Below, one piece after another: positions 16,351 through 27,880 of a DNA stretch of 64,000 nt. The stretch's first letter is position 1. Every line of letters begins with the position of its first letter. The notes under the pieces were generated by a model that saw nothing but the letters and a program-made list of their open reading frames with translations, was not told where the DNA came from and made no database searches. The DNA comes from Stentor roeselii (Eukaryota > Ciliophora > Heterotrichea > Heterotrichida > Stentoridae): positions 1-64,000 of the forward strand of contig RSEH01000067.1 in the NCBI GenBank assembly GCA_006503475.1, written 5' to 3'. A program made the translations under genes and the position numbers.

Positions 16351-17033
16351 AGAAGAGATAGGCCCATTAAATGTTTGAAAAAGAGCTTCAAGTTTTTTTT
16401 TTTAATATTGAACAAACATATTTTTGAATCATCAGACCCAGTTATGCAATTGTTGGATTTGATATCGATTATAACGATCCTTGATTTATGGTAAGAAAAA
16501 GCTGCGATTTGAGAAAGACTCTCAAGGTTGAAAAAACGAACAGTTCCGTCTGTGCCACCGCTTACAAGAATTTTGAAGTTTTCTTGTATTGAGATTGAGT
16601 TTATTTCTGAAGTATGAGATTTGATAAATAAATTGAAACTCTTATGAATAGTTTTTTTAAGATATTTGAAGTAAGTTATTTCTTTTATAAATTGATTAAA
16701 TAATAATTTGATATTTTTGTAAATTTGGGAATGCTTTGAGTTTTTAGTATGGGATTTTATAAGTAAATTTATGCAAAGATGTTTGAGAATTATAAGAGCA
16801 TTGTTTTGAATATTTTGATTAATGTTTTGATTGATTTGAGCTAGTTGAGTTTTTGATGACTTTATAAATTTGATTCTTTGTTGAATTTGAGTGATTTGAT
16901 TGTGAGATTTTTTATTTTTGGGTGGTGTAATAATATGTTGAAGTGGCTTGAGTAGATGACTCTTGAGTTCCGAATATGTTAAGGTTTTTGTTTGACAAGC
17001 ACATTTGTATTTGTTTTTTTCTGACGTCATCAT
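16347..17033 (-). CDS. N-terminal piece of the split WD40 gene
   Basis: 228 codons from ATG 17033, in the context ATAATAAATATG. The first 140 residues are Lys/Asn/Gln/Ile-rich and helical, possibly coiled coil, with no known domain. Then come two WD40 blades: SHTSEINSISI with VSGGTDGTVRFFNL, and HKSRIVIIDI with TGSDDSKICLFNI. Right after this last blade strand the gene runs into an 11-A homopolymer (minus strand) and the frame is lost; one more A would carry it directly into the next ORF. The N-terminal helical segment followed by a propeller resembles many ciliate WD40 proteins. Composition is extremely A+T-rich. Confidence 0.65.
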   Translation of the reverse strand: MMTSEKNKYKCACQTKTLTYSELKSHLLKPLQHIITPPKNKKSHNQITQIQQRIKFIKSSKTQLAQINQNINQNIQNNALIILKHLCINLLIKSHTKNSKHSQIYKNIKLLFNQFIKEITYFKYLKKTIHKSFNLFIKSHTSEINSISIQENFKILVSGGTDGTVRFFNLESLSQIAAFSYHKSRIVIIDIKSNNCITGSDDSKICLFNIKKKNLKLFFKHLMGLSLL

Positions 17034-20000
17034 ATTTATTATAATGGAAGATTTTTATAAAAGGTTGTATAAATGGGAATAAAATTAGAAATGAATATAT
17101 TGTACTATTTTTTATTTTTACACAAAAAGCTTCAAAAAGAGGATAATAACTCAATTGAAACATGATAAATTTGAATAAACAATTACATATCCACTAAATA
17201 AACAATTCATGGAATGCCAAAGTTGAATTTTAAGAGTTATTTAAATATTTCTTGTCTTTAAGATAGGAAGAAAAAGAAGAAGTCTAAAAAAGCGAAAAAT
17301 TTTTAATTCCTTCAAAACATTAATTTTGGGACTTCGAAAAATCGGGTACTTATCAATCATGAAATTCATGGGAAATGCTCATTTGGTGATGATGGGACAA
17401 GAAGAAGCCAGACTTATTGACCATGACTTAAAAGCCATTATCCAACCTCCTGGATTATGCTTTCCGATAGTTTAAACTACTTGAATAATTTAGAAACTCT
17501 AACTGATTTGATTTTCATACTCTTTAGATCCAATTGCTACTATAGATTCTATAGTTACCGTAATAGTAATCCGGTTTGTTGACTTTCTATAACCCTGAGA
17601 TCACCCTTTGCCTTAGGGTTGGTTTTTACCTAATAGACTCAATCCAATTTCCAAAGCAGAAGAGAGCCAAAAAGACAAAACCAGTAGTTTACTTAATCCT
17701 AACCCTCTTACAAGCCTTTGATTTACGGCTTCTTATTCACTATCAATTCCTCCTATAAAGATAAGGTGTTTGCCACACCCACAATAGAAGATCACGAAGG
17801 TGGGCATCGAAGCTAGTAGTTTCTGGCCATAGTCCACCAAATGAAAACATCTATTACCATCTACAGTCCTTAAAGGCTACTGGGGCAATGGATGAGGACT
17901 TCCCACCACAGGCTTTGATGCTGGGAATTTGGATCTCCACATCAGATCAGTACGCTAGGGTCTAAGGACCTACTCACTCACGTGTTATAGTCCTAGAAAA
18001 GAAAAGAGGAGCAGTAGTTATCTTTTCACATTTAGACTCAGGTAGCCTGATGAGAATCATCGATTTGAATTCAAAAATATCGAGAGAAGGATATGAGCAG
18101 TGAAAACTATCCTCAAATCAGGATAGGACTTGTAAGCAAATCTTCTATCGAGAATGTTTAGGAGATCGAGAAGGACTAAAAGTATGAGTTAGTTGGAGAA
18201 TACTTTTTCATGGAATAAAGGGTTTTAAGATTGAGATTTGGAGAAGTATGAAAAGTAAATTGAAGAAATCAGGTCTTGTGAAGGTGTTCTTGAGATGGTT
18301 ATCAAGGAAATGAAAATGTGAAGATTCAAATTGAAGAATAGTATTGATAGTTAGTATAGTCTAACAATTCCAATCCAAATATAATTCCAAGTGAAAAAAT
18401 TATCTTCTTTCTTATGCTAATAATGTATAATATTGAATATTTAAATGCTATTAAAAGCAAAGATTTTTCTCCAATTGCTGCCAAGACCTTATCTGTTCAT
18501 CTTATCTAAAAATACGAAAATACGCAAATATTAAAACTTTGGAATAAAAATCTACAGCAAGTAAAAATCAAGTTTTCATCAAAAGTTCCAAAACTAGAAA
18601 TGCATGAAGAAAACAAGCAGCTCTTAAGTCAGATTCCCTCAAAGCTCTTCAAGTCCTGCCTGAGCAACCCAATGAACCTGTTTATCATTTCCCTATCAAT
18701 GAAAGTTTTTCAGACATTCCAAGTTATTTGAAATTCATCTAAAACTATATCGAAAACCCAAAAAAAGCAAAAGATTCATCTAACTAATTCTGAATTTCCT
18801 TGAAATCTGCTGCATGTTGTGCTTAAAGACTTTAAAACCACTGAAAATATAGAAACTCTGAGAAAACTATTACCTTAAATTTTCTTCAGAGAAAGGAAAA
18901 TACAAGAGGCTTCTCTGAATTAAATACTTCAACTGAACCAGCGATGAAAGCTCCAGCATCAGCAACTTGAGGATAAAAGATTTAAAATTTTCAGGAAATT
19001 CAACTGCGTCGGTAAATAATTTGCTTTTGTAAACACCTTTTGACTAAAGAAATCCGAACACTTCCAATACTATGAAGAGTCAATATAAAGAATTTTTTTT
19101 TTCAATTGTAGCATGTTGAAGGGATCAAAAAATCAGCACAATATTTGACTTTTTGAGTTTTGCCGACTTTGTGGAAAAAATTTGGAAACCCTGTAGAAAT
19201 GATTCTTGAATGTAGTCATTCTGTTTTCTTTGAATGTGATGATTTTTTTTTCTGCTGCATTATTGTGAACTTTATTAAAGATAACCAAAAGTTAAGAGAA
19301 AAATATTTGTATCTTTTGAGCTAGTATAATACATTCTGAATTTGTAGTGAAGGTACTCTTCAGGTTTATTGCAATTTGTGCTGACCTTTTAGAAAGACTT
19401 ATAAAAATTCTGAAATGTTATAAACTGAGCTTTCAGTATGACTTCTCAAGACTTCCTTTCAGTATTGCCAAGTTCATCATAACTTCAGTTGGGAAAGTAG
19501 AAAATGTGTGAAAGTATCTGTGAAGACTTGAGAAGAAGCATTTTATATAAAAAATTACCCCTGAGTATAAAGAAACTTTTATTGATTTGGGTGCTCAGTA
19601 TTATCATTCTCATTTCATTGAAATCTAAGTCAAACTAGGGAAAAGTCTAGGTATTAATTGACTTTTTATCACTGGGTGCTCTGAAAACTTGGAGGTTGTT
19701 TTTAATGTGCAGGTAAAAAATAATGGGTATGATTATTTCAGTCTTTATTTCGATTAGATTAGTTTGAGATGTAAGTTGCTAGAATTTCCTTATTATTTTA
19801 CTTTTTAATGAATAAATCAGGAATTTATTTATAATTTTTTGGTTAATATATAATTTTTCTTGTATTCATAGATTTTAAATCAAGTACCAGCTAATATATC
19901 CATTTTCTGAAAATTAAGAAAATAAACTCATTAAATTTCTTAGTGATATTCGCATACAATAGTAATCGAAGAAAACAGAGATCCCTTAAAGAGAAAATAG

Positions 20001-20868
20001 CTATTTTAAGATTTAAACCCACAAGTCTATCGTGAAATTGTAACTCAAGGAAAAAGTTACCCTTGCTTTGAAAAAGATAACTTTGCTATATTTAAAGACT
20101 TCTTATTGAATAATAAACTAATTTTCTAAGTATAAGTTGCCATTCTGATGCCAGATGTTTGAGTTTCTTCCACTCCGAAAAACATAATATAACTGAGAAA
20201 AACGTAGAATTTACATTCATCACAGGTAAAATTGAAGATTTTATTTCAATGTTTGCTAAATTTTAAACCTCATTAAAGTCCTTCAAATAAGTCATTCCTG
20301 CTTTACACTAAGAAAATTAGAGAAGATCCATATAGCTGATGAACCCCGAATTTCATACAAAGATAGTCTCTAAAAATAATTTATGCAGTTTTAAAAGCGA
20401 TTCCCAATGCAATGTGAGCAGTTTCTTGACTAACACATTATGCTGGATCCTCTATAAATAGAAAGACTTTTCTAATTTTTCTTCTTTCGTTTAGAAAAAA
20501 TAACTCTTGAACACTTTAACCAATGTTATGATTTTTAATAAATTTGATAAAAGTTAGTTTAAATTAAGATTAAAATATAATTATGGCGATTTGTCTAGTT
20601 TATATTAATAATTAATTAAAGGCTATTATAATATTGATAATGCTCTTGATCATCAATATTAAACATACTTACTAGTCATAATAACCAATTATTATAATTA
20701 ACTAATAATTTTTATTAACTGATCTAATAAAATACCTATCTTTTGCTTACTATCAAATTCTGTTCTCGAATCATATAAAAACATTAAAATCTTTGATTCA
20801 TATATCAATTCAATATCAACTCTTTTATTTTGGATTTTAGAATTAAAGTTTACAAGAATTTTGCTAGA
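17034..20868. pseudogene. Long gap with at least two unidentified eroded genes
   Basis: Two GC-richer tracts stand out. At about 17,340-18,350 (+), a short open piece from ATG 17,359 (38 codons) and a long frame near 17,810-18,350 interrupted only by TAA and TGA look like a dead gene. At about 18,590-19,700 (+), a 49-codon open piece from ATG 18,601 and further broken frames form a second remnant. I could not match either to a family. A 60-codon ORF at 17,576-17,758 lies inside the first tract and is not credible alone. The remaining sequence to 20,868 is AT-rich with no gene. Confidence 0.4.
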
Positions 20869-22728
20869 TTAATCGTTAAGATGTTGAATCCTATAATTCA
20901 TTTTTGCGAATTTGACAAGAAATTCTGATAATTCCAGAGCTATCTCAGAGCTTTTTTGTATATGAAATTCTAGGAGTAATTTATTCACAATGATTGGTAG
21001 TTGTTCCTCAATTTTCACTTTGCTTTTATTATATTCATTATAGTAATTATGAATAAATATAGCTACTTTTGCATCTTTAAATAGTAATTTAATATCTTCT
21101 CTTTGAATGATGCACCTAGAAAGATTTTCATGTAGAACAAAAAATAATTTGTTCCAATAAGCTATCTTAAGAATATTAGAACTGTAAACAGCTAGTAGAT
21201 ATTTTTCATTCTCTATAAAGGACAAGCCTATAAATTTAGAAGTTTCATAAGTTAAAATGAAATCTTCTCTATTTTCCGAAATATTCCAAAATGAAATAAT
21301 ACCATTATCATTCCATTTAATACTAAATAATCCATGATCCGTAGGTTGTTTGATGCTAGTAATTGAATACTTATATGGCTTAACAAATCCTTTCAAGTCT
21401 TCAACTTTATTTTCTTTGCTCACGTTAGTATGAGTATGTAAATTTAGATCTTCTAATTTATTTTTAATTTTACAAATTTGAAACTTATAATCACTTGATC
21501 CAATTACCAGATACTTTCGATCAAGAGAGTAACTACAGCACAAAATTGAATTAGAAATTCCATTTAAAGTAAATTCTTTTGTTCGTTCTTTAATATTCCA
21601 AAATTGAACCGTTTGATCATCTGATCCAGTTACAAGATATTTTTCATCAGGAGAGTGAGAATAGCAATAAATTAAACCTGAATGTCCATTTAAATTAAAT
21701 TCCTCTCTTTCTTCTCCAATATTCCAAATTATTACCTTTTTATCAAATGATGCAGTTGCCAGATAATTTCCAGAAGGAGAAAAACAACAGGAATTAACCC
21801 AATCTGAATGTTCATACAAAGTAATCCCTGCTCTTCGTTCTTTAATATTCCAGATTTTAACTGTTTTATCTCTAGATCCAGTAAAGATATAATTACCATC
21901 AAAAGAATAACAACAGCATAATACCCAATCTGAATGTCCATTCAAAGTAAACTCTTCTCTTCGTTCTTTAATATTCCAGATTTTAACACTTTTATCTCTT
22001 GATCCAGTCGACAGATAATTCCCATCAGGAGAGTAAGAACAGCATATAACCCACTTTGAATGTCCTTTAAGAGTAAACTCTTCTCTTTGCTCTTTTATAT
22101 TCCAGAATTTTATAGTCTTGTCATCTGATCCAGTTGCAAAATAATTTTCATCAGAAGAATAAGAACAACATCGTATTGAACCGGAATGTTTATTAAGGGT
22201 GAGCTCTAATCTTTGTTCTTTTATATTCCAGATTTTAACTGTTTTATCTTTAGATCCAGTTACCAGATAATTTCCAAAAGGAGAATAACAACAGCAATAG
22301 ACCCAATCTAAATGTCCATTTAGAGTGAATTCTTCTCGTTGCTCTTTAATGTTCCAGATTTTAATCCTATTTGATGTAGATCCAGTTGCCAGATAGTTCC
22401 CATCAGGAGAGTAGCAACAGCAATATACTAAATCTGAATTTAGAGTGAACTCTAATTTTTGTTCTTTTATATTCCAGATTCTCACTGATTCGTCTCTTGA
22501 TCCAGTTGCTAGATAATTTCCATCAGGAGAGTAAGAACAGCAAATTACCCAATCTGAATGGCTTTCGTCAAATATTTTCATCGGCCAGGAATAATTTTGG
22601 TTTGAGTAATTTGAGTATTTTGAGTAGTACTTGTATAACTTTTTTTTAGTTTCTTCACTGAGTGTATGATGTTCAAGAGTCTGGAATATCTCCGCCTTCT
22701 TTACTGTTTGTGAACTAGATTTATTCAT
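20869..22728 (-). CDS. WD40 protein made of nine near-identical blades
   Basis: 619 codons from ATG 22728, directly after CTATAA. A short helical N-terminus (1-56) is followed by nine consecutive blades of 39-42 residues (57-429). All share the core CCxYSPDGNYLATGS, then a short D/K segment, IWNIKEQREEF and TLNGHS. More degenerate blades follow (about 450-550), then a helical tail of about 70 residues. Total length allows a double propeller. The blades are so alike in DNA that recent tandem duplication of a 126-bp unit is certain; this resembles the high-internal-repeat WD40 genes of HET/NWD-type proteins. No NACHT, TIR, F-box or other effector domain is present, so the role is a scaffold of unknown partner. 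An odd feature is the Cys pair in almost every blade. Confidence 0.85.
   Translation of the reverse strand: MNKSSSQTVKKAEIFQTLEHHTLSEETKKKLYKYYSKYSNYSNQNYSWPMKIFDESHSDWVICCSYSPDGNYLATGSRDESVRIWNIKEQKLEFTLNSDLVYCCCYSPDGNYLATGSTSNRIKIWNIKEQREEFTLNGHLDWVYCCCYSPFGNYLVTGSKDKTVKIWNIKEQRLELTLNKHSGSIRCCSYSSDENYFATGSDDKTIKFWNIKEQREEFTLKGHSKWVICCSYSPDGNYLSTGSRDKSVKIWNIKERREEFTLNGHSDWVLCCCYSFDGNYIFTGSRDKTVKIWNIKERRAGITLYEHSDWVNSCCFSPSGNYLATASFDKKVIIWNIGEEREEFNLNGHSGLIYCYSHSPDEKYLVTGSDDQTVQFWNIKERTKEFTLNGISNSILCCSYSLDRKYLVIGSSDYKFQICKIKNKLEDLNLHTHTNVSKENKVEDLKGFVKPYKYSITSIKQPTDHGLFSIKWNDNGIISFWNISENREDFILTYETSKFIGLSFIENEKYLLAVYSSNILKIAYWNKLFFVLHENLSRCIIQREDIKLLFKDAKVAIFIHNYYNEYNKSKVKIEEQLPIIVNKLLLEFHIQKSSEIALELSEFLVKFAKMNYRIQHLND
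21442..22560 (-). repeat. Nine tandem 126-bp WD40-coding repeats
   Basis: Direct repeats inside the coding region at 20869-22728. Units start at codons 57, 98, 139, 181, 223, 265, 307, 349 and 391; six are exactly 42 codons. The DNA of neighbouring units, for example the segments encoding the IWNIKE and GNYLATGS cores, is nearly the same. Such arrays change copy number by unequal exchange. Confidence 0.85.
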
Positions 22729-24235
22729 TTATAGATCTTGATTTATACTAATTATCGTCAGAGATGCTCCTCTTGAAATTTTTAACCCTCGATCTCTTGA
22801 GATAGTAGCAAATGACTCTATTAAGTAATAAGAGATTATTTAAACTCTTTAGTAATCCTTTCTGTATAAACTCTGTGGTTATTTGGAGTTAAAATTTTTA
22901 TGAAAAATATAAACCTAAGGTAATAATTAGTTAATAAATACTTAAATACTAACAGAAGCATCTCGCTAAGGAACACCTTCAGCATATTGAAGAATAGAAA
23001 TATAGAACTCATGAATTTTATCAAATATTTAGCTCGAAATAATTATTTACTTAATTATTAAATGGCAGCAAGTAGACAAATGATCTAATATCATCTTCTG
23101 TCTTCTCTTGAAACAGTTGTTAACATCTTTATAAAAAATTAAAGATCCTAAAAAATTGATACTAGAAATAATCAGTCTTTCTAATATAAATAATTCAAGC
23201 GATTTTCATCAAACTAGTCTCAAGTAAGTCCTTTCTTACTAGCCCAGTTTAAAACTGAGAAGTTTAAACAAGAAACCGAAAATATAGGCAAAGACAATAA
23301 ATCAAAATATAATTTGAGAGTCCTAAAAAATACTGTAAGTTCCAGCCTAAAAGTCTCATTTAATAAATTTTATACCCAATCAGCATGAAATAACAACATC
23401 TGGTTTCATCTTAAAATACTTAGTCTTTCATTAAATGAATTTTTTGAGTCTTTTCGAATTAAACATAATCCAACCGAAGACAATCGAGGATTACCAAGAG
23501 CTTTACTGGGTGAAAATCACAGAAGTTAACAATCAAATGAATAGCAAGAAGTTATCCAATGTCCTAGACTTTAAAAAAACTTGGGTGGTCTTGAATGAAT
23601 TGTAAGAGATTTTCTGAGGCCTCATTTGAGAAATTAATTTTAAGATCTGGCCGAGTATGTGATTAGCGAAACTTCATGAATGCTAAGATTTGACGAATTT
23701 CAAGATTTTTAGAATAAAAGGAATTTGTGTTGAATAGAAACCTGGACATAATTTTATCATAAGTAGTTGCGATTTGAAAAGACTTAAACAGACCTCACTT
23801 CAATTTCATATTTCTTGTAGGGAAAGGTATTTAATAATACAGCCTACTTTATTGAGAACTTGATGGGAATTGATGAAGGCATGAACTTAAACTCAGCTTT
23901 TCTAGTTAAGTGATATAAATCTCCTAGAATATTAGATACAATCAGCAATTAATATCTAAATGTTTATAAACAAATCTACAAAATATTCTAACAAAATTTG
24001 AAAAAAATAATACCTTGTCTATTTAAAATGTATAGCATATCAAATTTGAAGCAAAATTCAAGAAAGGACTTCAGGTTCATGTAATATCATGTATTAATTA
24101 ACAATATCGAATGAAATTTCATAAAAATCCTGACTATGCTAAAGTATTAGTAATTCATCCTTGGTCTCTAAACTTAAAAAAGTCACTTAATCTACCCAAA
24201 ATCATCATTAATAATAAAATAATCTATCTAAAGCC
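22729..24235. other. AT-rich gap with faint gene remnants
   Basis: No intact gene. A 62-codon hydrophobic minus-strand ORF (22836-23024) has no support beyond being open. Between about 23,440 and 23,940 a plus-strand frame with stops includes a coding-like stretch ending near 23,910, probably a dead fragment of unknown family. Confidence 0.4.
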
Positions 24236-25930
24236 TTACTCATGATGCTCCTTCACGTAAATTTTCATAGTTTGATATTGAATATTATCACCATCTAAAT
24301 AAGTTGCATATTTATTGAGTTGAGTGAATGATGGATTATCTTTCGTTGAAACTTTTGTCCCATCTTCTAAAATCGCCTTGTGGTACCAGGATGATCTGAT
24401 AAATATAATGTTATTGAACTGAATTTTCACATTGCAAATCGGGCAAACAGATAGATTATTAATTAAAGTCCTCAAATCGAAATTGCCATAACCTAATGTT
24501 TTATATACCCATTGATCATTTGCTCTGCATAAACTATTCTTGCATATCCCATTTATGCTTAGACCAAATCCAACATCAGCCCAATCAGGCCCATTTAAAG
24601 AGAATTCACAATGTTGAAGGTTAGACATCGAATTAAATGTCATACCTGAAAGAATAGTAATTTTTGGGCCACATCCACCTCCTCTCAATCGTATTACAAG
24701 ATGAATTTTTGATTCATTTTCAATATTATAATATGATAATTGTTTGTCATCTTCAAGCTGTGTCCGATCATAAATCAATCGTTGATTACATGGAGAAATT
24801 CCTTCCATCTCTTCTATAATCAATTTAATATCTTCTGTTTTAAATGACAAATCACAAAAAATAGTTAATGTTTTACCGGTTATAGTTTTAACAAAAATTT
24901 TAGTTTTACAAATCTTTTTTAATATTGTATAATTCATATATAGATTTATTACGCTACTTGTATCTATTCCATAAAATTGTATATTATTTTCACTGAGCAG
25001 TAATCGTTTATTATAATATAATTTCTGCTGATCTGAAGGTATTCCTTCATACTCCTCGATTTTCTTCTGAATCTGTGAGATCGTAGTTAAAATTCCACAG
25101 CTTAATGATAATTTTATATTAGATGGTAGTTGGATAAAGAAATTAATTTTTTCTTTTGCAGGTTCTATTGAAAGAAAAAAAATTTCCTTCTTGTAATTTA
25201 TTTCATAATCTCTGATTATAAAACTATTTATGAGTTCGATATCATTAAAAAAGAGTTTCTGATTGTATTTAGATATTTTAAATTCATTCTCAATCTTTGA
25301 TTTTAATTCTTTGACATTTAATTCCGGTATACCACTAAACAAAATTAATAGACCCGTAGATGTTTTAATTATAATTGAACTTTCATTGTATTTATTATCA
25401 AAATCTATGAGATTAATTTGATCTTTATTCTTTATCTCGTAATCATTGAGTGTTTTTTTATTTTCGAGTATTTTTCTTCCAAAGATTAATATCTGGTTCT
25501 CAATTTTAATACCTTCTAAATCCTGGATTTTTCGTTTAATGATATTGATACTATCAATATATCTACAAGTTAATGTTATTACTTGTCCATTTAATTTCAT
25601 TATAAGCAGAGTTATCTCTTCATTCAATTTTTTAGAAACGCTTGACTTCAAATGTCCTTTTTCGATATTTTCTTTTACAAGATAAATTATTTCACCGTTT
25701 TTTATTGAATAATAAGTGAGCTTTTTATTATCATCAAGTTTTTTTCCTTTATAAATTAATATTTGATCACATGGTTCAATTTTGGAAAATTTAAAAAGTT
25801 TTTCTTTTACTTTATTTATGAGTTCTGAAAGCTGAAAATTCAAAGAATATTGTTGTCCTGAACTGTCTTTGATATAGATTTCAATGCTTGGAGAGTATTC
25901 TTGATTGTTGATATTTCTTTGTAAATCCAT
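24236..25930 (-). CDS. Five ubiquitin-like domains fused to a C-terminal Cys4 zinc domain
   Basis: 564 codons from ATG 25930, after TTTATAA. Five ubiquitin folds lie head to tail: 14-86, 106-175, 185-255, 262-332 and 343-418. Each has the pattern K/Q-x-K-I, QxLIYxGKxL and a final strand. Only the last is close to ubiquitin itself ([14 protein letters not shown]) and it ends in RLRGG (414-418). The others are diverged and lack GG. The tail (419-564) has the conserved order [17 protein letters not shown], GxGxFD, CPIC and a W-containing strand; C463, C468, C496 and C499 are the likely zinc ligands. I recall the same tail fused to ubiquitin in fungi and amoebae. Processing after GG, as in ribosomal-protein fusions, would release it. 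The function of the tail is unknown. Confidence 0.85.
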
Positions 25931-27880
25931 TTATAAATCATTTATAATCTTAATACACATATTTTAATTTTGCATATTGGAATACAATAAATTTTCGATT
26001 GTCTATATTTTTAATAAAATGAATTTCTAATATTAGACAAATTTATTAAGATTAATGATAGTAATATATTTGATGACACTCATTAAAAACTGGAAATAGA
26101 TTTGAAGATATTATACTTTAAGAATTAAAATTAATAATCAATCCTAGGATGAAAAATTTAGTTATAAACCTTGCAATTATTCATTAATTCAAAATTTGTA
26201 AGTATTTAATTTATCTCTTTTTTTAGAATCATAGATGCAGAGAAATATCTTTAGATCTAATAATACTCTAATTAATTGATCTATTCTCTCTATCTTTTAA
26301 ATACTATTATAGTTTATGGTTTATTCTAAATCTAAGGATCAGTCTAAATTTGTCTACAAAAAAGAGTATACATTTTTATATTCTTTAATGTCTTCAAAAT
26401 CGATAATTGGTCTACAATATTTTTCTACAAAAAATTATAGCTATTTCAATTTTCCTTTATATTAAAAATTAGGCTACAAGTTTATCAACAAAATTTATCA
26501 TCACCATTTATTGTTAAGTAATATATTTAAGTTAGGTTTAACTTAACCCCATACCATCTTATATGATTTTCAAAGATATAAACTAACTAATTTAACTTTA
26601 AAACAATTTCCTTAATGATAATAGTTATATCTAGTAGCTTAGTTCATAAGTATTCAACTCTATTTACAACCCAAAATTAAAATCTCAGTATCAAGAATCT
26701 GTGAAGTATAAAAATATTATAATTCTTCGAAGTAAATCTATATTTTATATAACTGTGATATTTTTTAATGCACTTATAATCGAAATTTCAGTACTTAAAG
26801 CTATTAATACTAAAATATTAAAAAAATTTTATGATCATATATATTAATTATGAATTTAGGCTTAAACGGAATTCAATATGTTGTTAAAAACTATCAGTAA
26901 AAATTTTATTAAAAGGATGATGCTTATCTTAAGCTTCTCTTGGCAATTCTTCCAATTGTTAAGAGCTCTGAGAGATTTAATATGGATAATTAATCATAAT
27001 CAAAGATATTTTAAAAGTAAAAAGTACTAATGTTGATACAGTGGTTTGGGTAAATCTCTTAATATGTAGATGTTTTAGTATGAAGTATGGGATAGAAAAC
27101 TAGATATTTAGATAATTACAAAAATATCAGAATGAAGTTAAGTATTGTAAAATTCGATTATTATTTACCCATAAAATATAAGAAATATGCAAGGCCAGAG
27201 TTTGAAGTAACAAATTTTTGTTTGAAATACACCTTATCATACTTATATTCAAACCTCTCAGTGCTGCTCAAAATGATATCAATAATTAATATCTTTGCAA
27301 AATCTTATTTAAATATTAGGAATAATTATTAGAATTATTAACTATCTCAATGATAGGAAATATTGGATGATTAGATAAATTCGATTATGTAAGAAAAATA
27401 ATTTTCATTAACTCAATTAATTACCTTATTCATTAGAATTATTATCATTTTTGCCCCAAAGAAACCTGGATCACCATTTAATTGATGCAAATTTTAAAAA
27501 AAAATCAAAAATCTTAATCAGCAATACAGTTAATCTGTTAAAATTCATTAACTTTCCATCAAATAATTATAATAAAACACTTAAAACTTGTCAAAACCAG
27601 ATAAAAATACAAAAAACCCTTCAATTCAAGTACTTTATATAAAATTAAAACACTTAATAGTGTTTAAAGCCTTTTGATTTATTTTAAAGAAGTTTTCTTG
27701 TAACAGTAGGGTATTCAGATTATCACTGCAGGCACGACAGGCTCTGCAGGCATTGATTCTACTATAGGGCAAATTATCTGGTCTCATATCTTAAAGTGAT
27801 GCATATCTAATTAATTAACTACATGATTCCTCAAATCTAAGATTAATTCCCTAATATACAGGGTTAATGATAAAATTTAA
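25931..27880. other. AT-rich intergenic region
   Basis: About 1.95 kb, very A+T-rich. Two short ORFs (27132-27332 and 27451-27642, plus strand) are Asn/Ile/Lys-rich chance frames. A small GC-rich spot near 27,725-27,765 repeats CTGCAGGCA twice but has no evident function. Confidence 0.5.

Follow-up and report, generated by a model that had tools for sequence, protein, structure and literature searches.

A gene on the reverse strand of a 64,000-nucleotide stretch of Stentor roeselii DNA (the whole stretch is called the window here) encodes five diverged ubiquitin-like units followed by a Cys4 tail. It is best explained as a ubiquitin-fusion precursor that would be cut once, releasing an undescribed Cys4 domain, and we put the probability of this explanation at about 0.5. 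The five units would fold in a row, with an LRGG end kept on the last one only, and one of the cell's own deubiquitinases would cut once after G418. This cut would free a 146-aa Cys4 domain that starts with Gly-Cys and probably holds zinc, leaving a leader of 418 residues which comprises all five units and ends in RLRGG. The tail would be the active product and the leader mainly a folded carrier delivering it, much like ubiquitin in its fusions to ribosomal tails. Of the two, the tail is more likely to be the product, because it, and not the leader, is strongly constrained between close copies. The most ordinary guess for its role after release is a zinc-stabilized fold binding a partner protein or nucleic acid.

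A more far-reaching account, which we consider rather unlikely, has an undescribed, lineage-expanded eukaryotic Cys4 domain freed by a single cut from diverged polyubiquitin-like arrays in which the fold is selected and the surface freed. The array would then act as a carrier, either sacrificial or diversifying, and the freed tail exposing its Gly-Cys end would be the signal.

Organization of the gene and distribution of its tail

The ORF (24236–25930, minus strand, as are all features below) runs from an ATG start to a TAA stop without internal stops and encodes 564 aa. The ubiquitin fold was recognized in five stretches of the protein (Pfam PF00240, whole-protein E 5.8e-58). All five units were also matched when the Pfam ubiquitin family was searched genome-wide, four of them above the curated cut-off and unit 3 marginally below it (24.9 vs 25.4 bits). 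In phmmer comparisons with ubiquitin, the matches cover residues 17–85 for unit 1 (25676–25882, i-E 3.6e-10), 108–175 for unit 2 (25406–25609, i-E 9.7e-14), 186–248 for unit 3 (25187–25375, i-E 9.2e-6), and 274–332 for unit 4 (24935–25111, i-E 4.8e-8), and none of these four includes a Gly-Gly. Unit 5 (residues 344–418, 24677–24901, i-E 3.7e-23, 67.4 bits) is the closest to ubiquitin and the only one to reach ubiquitin position 76, ending in IRLRGG at residue 418. In alignment it keeps R42, I44, H68, V70, R72, L73, R74, G75, and G76, residues with known roles in ubiquitin.

The RLRGG sequence occupies residues 414–418 (24677–24691), and the deubiquitinase cut is predicted after G418. The tail (residues 419–564, 146 aa, 24239–24676) adjoins unit 5 directly, begins with Gly-Cys, and ends in KEHHE. 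Both hallmarks of a precursor, a unit of ubiquitin fold directly before the tail and Gly-Gly at the junction, are present, and the initial annotation was correct in placing RLRGG on unit 5 alone, exactly before the tail. The Cys4 core of the tail, C463-x4-C468-x27-C496-x2-C499 (24434–24544), likewise bears out the earlier description, as these four cysteines are invariant in all 15 alignable tails of the genome. The layout of five units plus a Cys4 tail is far beyond chance. A predicted structure of the full protein, folded alone, had a pLDDT of 30 and was useless.

When a ubiquitin-like unit ends in IRLRGG and the next residue is not proline, it is a standard substrate of deubiquitinases. Cutting enzymes exist in this genome, given 92 matches to the deubiquitinase family PF00443, two E1_UFD matches, and true ubiquitin genes at C354 and, as a fusion to eL40, at C432. 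The 92 deubiquitinase matches seem a large set for 44 Mb. At least 104 ubiquitin-family matches were seen, and several diverged tandem ubiquitin-like arrays lack this tail (C50, C80, C384, and C514 among them). Inspected by eye, the C80 array carries a TAA in frame where ubiquitin has E34, and so does the fifth unit of the tail-bearing locus C288. The one S27a among the matches listed (C505:76218–76346 region) has a short, diverged ubiquitin-like leader ending in LAGG rather than ordinary ubiquitin. Three single ubiquitin-like genes of ~80 aa, ending in NKGG, YRGG, and NRGG, lie at C77:126800–129000 and C77:144043–144288. With the second E1_UFD match ~15 kb away, they may constitute a distinct modifier that has an E1 to itself.

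The genome searched (44.4 Mb, 522 contigs, readable with standard stops) contains 17 tail loci, which were found in searches with three family members. The weakest, C331, was reached by one member search at E 0.18; its score with the family profile is 39 bits, and its tree neighbor finds it at E 4e-5. Fifteen of the 17 loci were aligned, C445 and C20:244786 being too broken to align whole. Beyond the four cysteines, one Gly and one Phe are also invariant in the 15 aligned tails, and the C471 and C288 tails have an extra cysteine pair (QCNN...RSC) where the window gene has F and S. The cysteine pattern suggests that the tail may bind zinc.

The tail occurs both fused and unfused, rather than only as an unfused gene as might have spoken against the initial annotation, since a recognizable ubiquitin unit precedes it at eight loci (the window gene, C471, C288, C202, C327, C445, C512, and C92) and not at the other nine. 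Six of these nine (C348, C63, C20:72442, C214, C466, and C137) have other N-terminal parts, little sequence precedes the tail at C331 and at C453:73306 (on the contig of the window but beyond the window itself), and C20:244786 is a fragment. The C214 and C466 proteins start with MGC, which resembles a lipidation signal. Lipidation of the freed Gly-Cys end of the window tail was considered as well and is a weak candidate, the residues after the cut being a poor fit to the N-myristoylation consensus. The seven loci nearest to the tail of the window gene (that gene itself on C453, C471, C288, C202, and C327, chosen by tree, and C445 and C20:244786, chosen by identity) all lie <25 kb from a contig end, which suggests repeated or subtelomeric surroundings.

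Database searches gave the tail no name. The tail of the window gene has no Pfam match at E up to 10. With 11 family members as queries, three Pfam families (best E 0.035) and five NCBIfam families (best E 0.012) were each hit by a single member, and none is credible. Among PDB sequences, a single-sequence query of the tail returned one match, an engineered intein at E 0.075, which is not credible, and a profile query returned four matches at E 1.1–7.5 (VP2, RNF4 twice, and RNF38), which were taken as chance.

Scans of viral, phage, and prokaryote sequences, which reach limited divergence, yielded no relatives in viral contigs (queried with the window tail, with an alignment of four tails from its clade, and with the C512 and C92 tails aligned to each other), no matches in phages (C512 tail as sole query), and no relatives in prokaryote genomes (four-tail alignment). 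A degenerate DNA pattern built on the Cys core matched twice in viral contigs and 23 times in prokaryote genomes, and none of the 25 matches encodes a relative (best E 0.11 against the family profile). In the literature, the tail was named in no title or abstract start found. The same tail presumably follows ubiquitin in fungi and amoebae. Judged from its sequence, the Cys4 tail forms a separate family, one that no Pfam or NCBIfam model finds.

Junctions and constraint between copies

Gly-Gly is found at the junction with the tail in six of the eight family members with a ubiquitin unit (RGG in four of the six), compared with none of the 20 inner unit ends. The hypergeometric p for this difference is 7.4e-5, a value that overstates independence because the copies are related. 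The inner units were counted by hand (four in the window gene, four in C471, seven in C288, four in C202, and one in C445), leaving out the N-terminal parts of C512 and C92, which have no ubiquitin match. Besides those of the window gene and C471, the Gly-Gly junctions read IRIRGG/GLVPK (C288), LRLRGG/GMPPS (C512), PILGGG/GFSMA (C327), and IRLSGG/GGPML (C445). The cut site is lost in C202 (LKLRRE) and C92 (YLTTGA), both of which have ubiquitin and the tail. In the tail tree, the RGG label requires two changes among the labeled rows, and shuffled labels did as well in 72 of 500 trials. Of the arrays lacking the tail, the diverged C50 array has Gly-Gly in none of its eight units, and the near-canonical C80 arrays keep it at some units.

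Codons 415–424 are identical in the window gene and C471, and codons 413 and 414 both differ, so that the LRGG codons are the same in the two copies and the preceding R codon is not. A single cut before the tail, as had been claimed, fits the restriction of Gly-Gly to tail-adjacent ends and the identity of codons 415–424, and the tail is constrained as well. The claim does not extend to the whole family: C202 and C92 lack Gly-Gly, C445 has LSGG and C327 LGGG, and nine of 17 loci have no recognizable ubiquitin, so cleavage is no general need of the domain.

C471 is an 11.4-kb contig collinear with window positions 16843–20255 and 23546–26574 at 83–87% identity, and represents either a segmentally duplicated copy or a highly diverged haplotype. 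The intervening ~3.3 kb of the window (20256–23545), with a WD-repeat-like ORF at 20869–22728, has no counterpart at the corresponding place in C471, a gene-sized insertion or deletion. Nucleotide identity between the copies is 0.963 in the tail, 0.79–0.90 in the leader units, 0.899 in the 5′ flank, and 0.845 in the 3′ flank, with unit 5 changing fastest within the leader (0.79). The dN/dS is 0.26 for the tail (bootstrap 0.08–0.80) vs 0.97 for the leader (bootstrap 0.68–1.42), with Fisher p 0.013 for their nd:sd counts.

Within the leader, codons at 18 positions buried in ubiquitin have a dN/dS of 0.39 (0.14–1.03) vs 1.01 (0.66–1.64) for the other codons (p 0.031 for nd:sd, 2.8e-5 for nonsynonymous density). 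Hydrophobic residues occupy 81 and 82 of the 90 core positions in the two copies, and nonsynonymous core changes are uneven, at 0, 1, 5, 0, and 3.5 in units 1 to 5. A single indel event occurs in 1253 leader columns, compared with 23 in 1263 flank columns (p 2.7e-6). That one-base indel, in a run of A, breaks the C471 frame and may be an assembly error. In unit 5 of C471, position 72 is N and position 68 is V, so surface features important for ubiquitin enzymes are not all kept. From these comparisons, the frame and fold of the leader appear to be preserved, its surface changes at about the non-coding rate, and the tail is preserved.

The second recent pair, C63 and C20:72442, repeats the pattern, with dN/dS 0.78 for the leader and 0.21 for the tail (p 0.039). 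Among wider relatives, the tail of the window gene is 68% identical to that of C288 and 60% to that of C202; for leader residues 1–344, where aligned, the values are 37% and 41%. In the older, saturated pair C512/C92, identity is 55% in the N-terminal part, 34% in the ubiquitin unit, and 48% in the tail, so in this pair another part is better conserved than the tail. Of the seven loci nearest to the window tail, only the window gene and C327 are unbroken. The leader frame is broken in C471 and C202, C288 has its in-frame TAA in the fifth unit, and C445 has several breaks; C63, from another clade, is also broken. C471 is open to the tail end from unit 2, C288 from inside unit 5 of eight, and C202 from inside its last inner unit. 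Some of the breaks among near copies may be assembly errors.

Alternative explanations

A protein that is never cut, in which the units serve as permanent docking or solubility modules, the Cys4 domain is the working end, and RLRGG is a leftover, is unlikely in our estimation, although it fits C202 and C92, which have lost the Gly-Gly end, and for the other relatives, in which the N-terminus is diverged ubiquitin-like or not ubiquitin-like at all. A review proposes that ubiquitin escaping cutting may become a fixed ubiquitin-like domain (PMC11354881), and this route from cut ubiquitin to fixed domain fits C202 and C92. A leftover is harder to reconcile with the distribution of Gly-Gly, kept at six of eight tail junctions and at none of 20 inner ends, and with the identical block shared by the window gene and C471, which spans LRGG directly after two codons that differ. 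Both observations are in keeping with the single-cut precursor.

The leader might also vary freely because the gene is a decaying duplicate in a dying family and the leader is no longer important. The leader dN/dS of 0.97, with divergence like that of the flanks, points in this direction, as do the broken frames of C471, C202, C288, C445, and C63 and the fragment C20:244786. Nevertheless, the ORF of the window gene stays open for all 564 codons, the leader has a single indel compared with 23 in the flanks, change is lower in its ubiquitin core than in its other codons, the tail dN/dS is 0.26, and the C471 break is the one that may be an assembly error. Neutral decay as the sole account of the leader was rejected on the scarcity of indels, the slower core, and the constrained tail, and decay in general seems improbable. 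Still more doubtful is a leader that is itself the product, a 418-residue ISG15-like modifier ending in RLRGG, with the tail as a cap removed at maturation and the surface drift as diversifying recognition. Unit 5 keeps the ubiquitin residues listed above, the surface dN/dS of 1.01 (0.66–1.64) is compatible with diversifying selection, an E1 is present in the genome, and conjugation through the C-terminal Gly-Gly would be compatible with the sequence. However, a cap that is thrown away would not be expected to be better conserved than the rest of the protein, R72 and H68 are lost in C471, and the surface rate is not above neutrality.

Comparison with known systems

The single-cut precursor most resembles the eL40 and eS31 (S27a) ubiquitin fusions, in which a ubiquitin unit ending in LRGG directly precedes a small Cys-rich C-terminal protein. 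Known ubiquitin fusions mainly carry ribosomal tails, and ubiquitin is their frozen part; in eL40 and S27a it is single and nearly invariant. The window gene differs in having five diverged units and a tail that exceeds the leader in conservation between close copies. Identity of the tail with that of S27a or eL40 was dismissed, as the window tail has no Pfam match to either.

Polyubiquitin shares the head-to-tail arrangement of ubiquitin-like units in one frame. The gene was not classed as polyubiquitin, its units scoring 12–67 bits against ubiquitin rather than being near-identical, and its inner units lacking Gly-Gly. ISG15 and FAT10 are multi-unit modifiers with tandem ubiquitin-like units and a C-terminal LRGG, an arrangement that the window protein would share once its tail is removed; they differ from it in that the window gene has five units and a long tail, which is the conserved part. 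In the bacterial-intein-like/ubiquitin-like loci of ciliates, a ubiquitin-like unit lies beside another domain, as here. A Hint or intein-like domain was nevertheless rejected for the tail: the residues after the junction are GC, GL, GM, GF, GG, and VT, with no Cys after Gly-Gly in the relatives, the C-terminal HN is absent (the tail ends in KEHHE), and the lone intein match (E 0.075) is missing from the four PDB matches of the profile.

Fusions of ubiquitin with a zinc RING finger are described in the algae Bigelowiella natans and Guillardia theta (273, 145, and 199 aa), where one or two ubiquitins precede a small zinc domain in a protist (PMC6332867). Compared with these, the window tail has only four invariant cysteines and no credible RING match. 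A RING domain was rejected because the 15 tails have four invariant Cys and no invariant His, compared with eight Cys/His cross-brace ligands; no RING family is among the Pfam matches, and the PDB matches to RNF4 (E 5.4 and 5.6) and RNF38 (E 7.5) do not rise above chance. If cleavage is true, the ubiquitin units have been retained mainly as folded carriers, and an unnamed Cys4 domain family is put on the map. Between close copies, constraint is reversed relative to ordinary ubiquitin genes: the tail and the likely cut site are kept, and the ubiquitin-like surface drifts.
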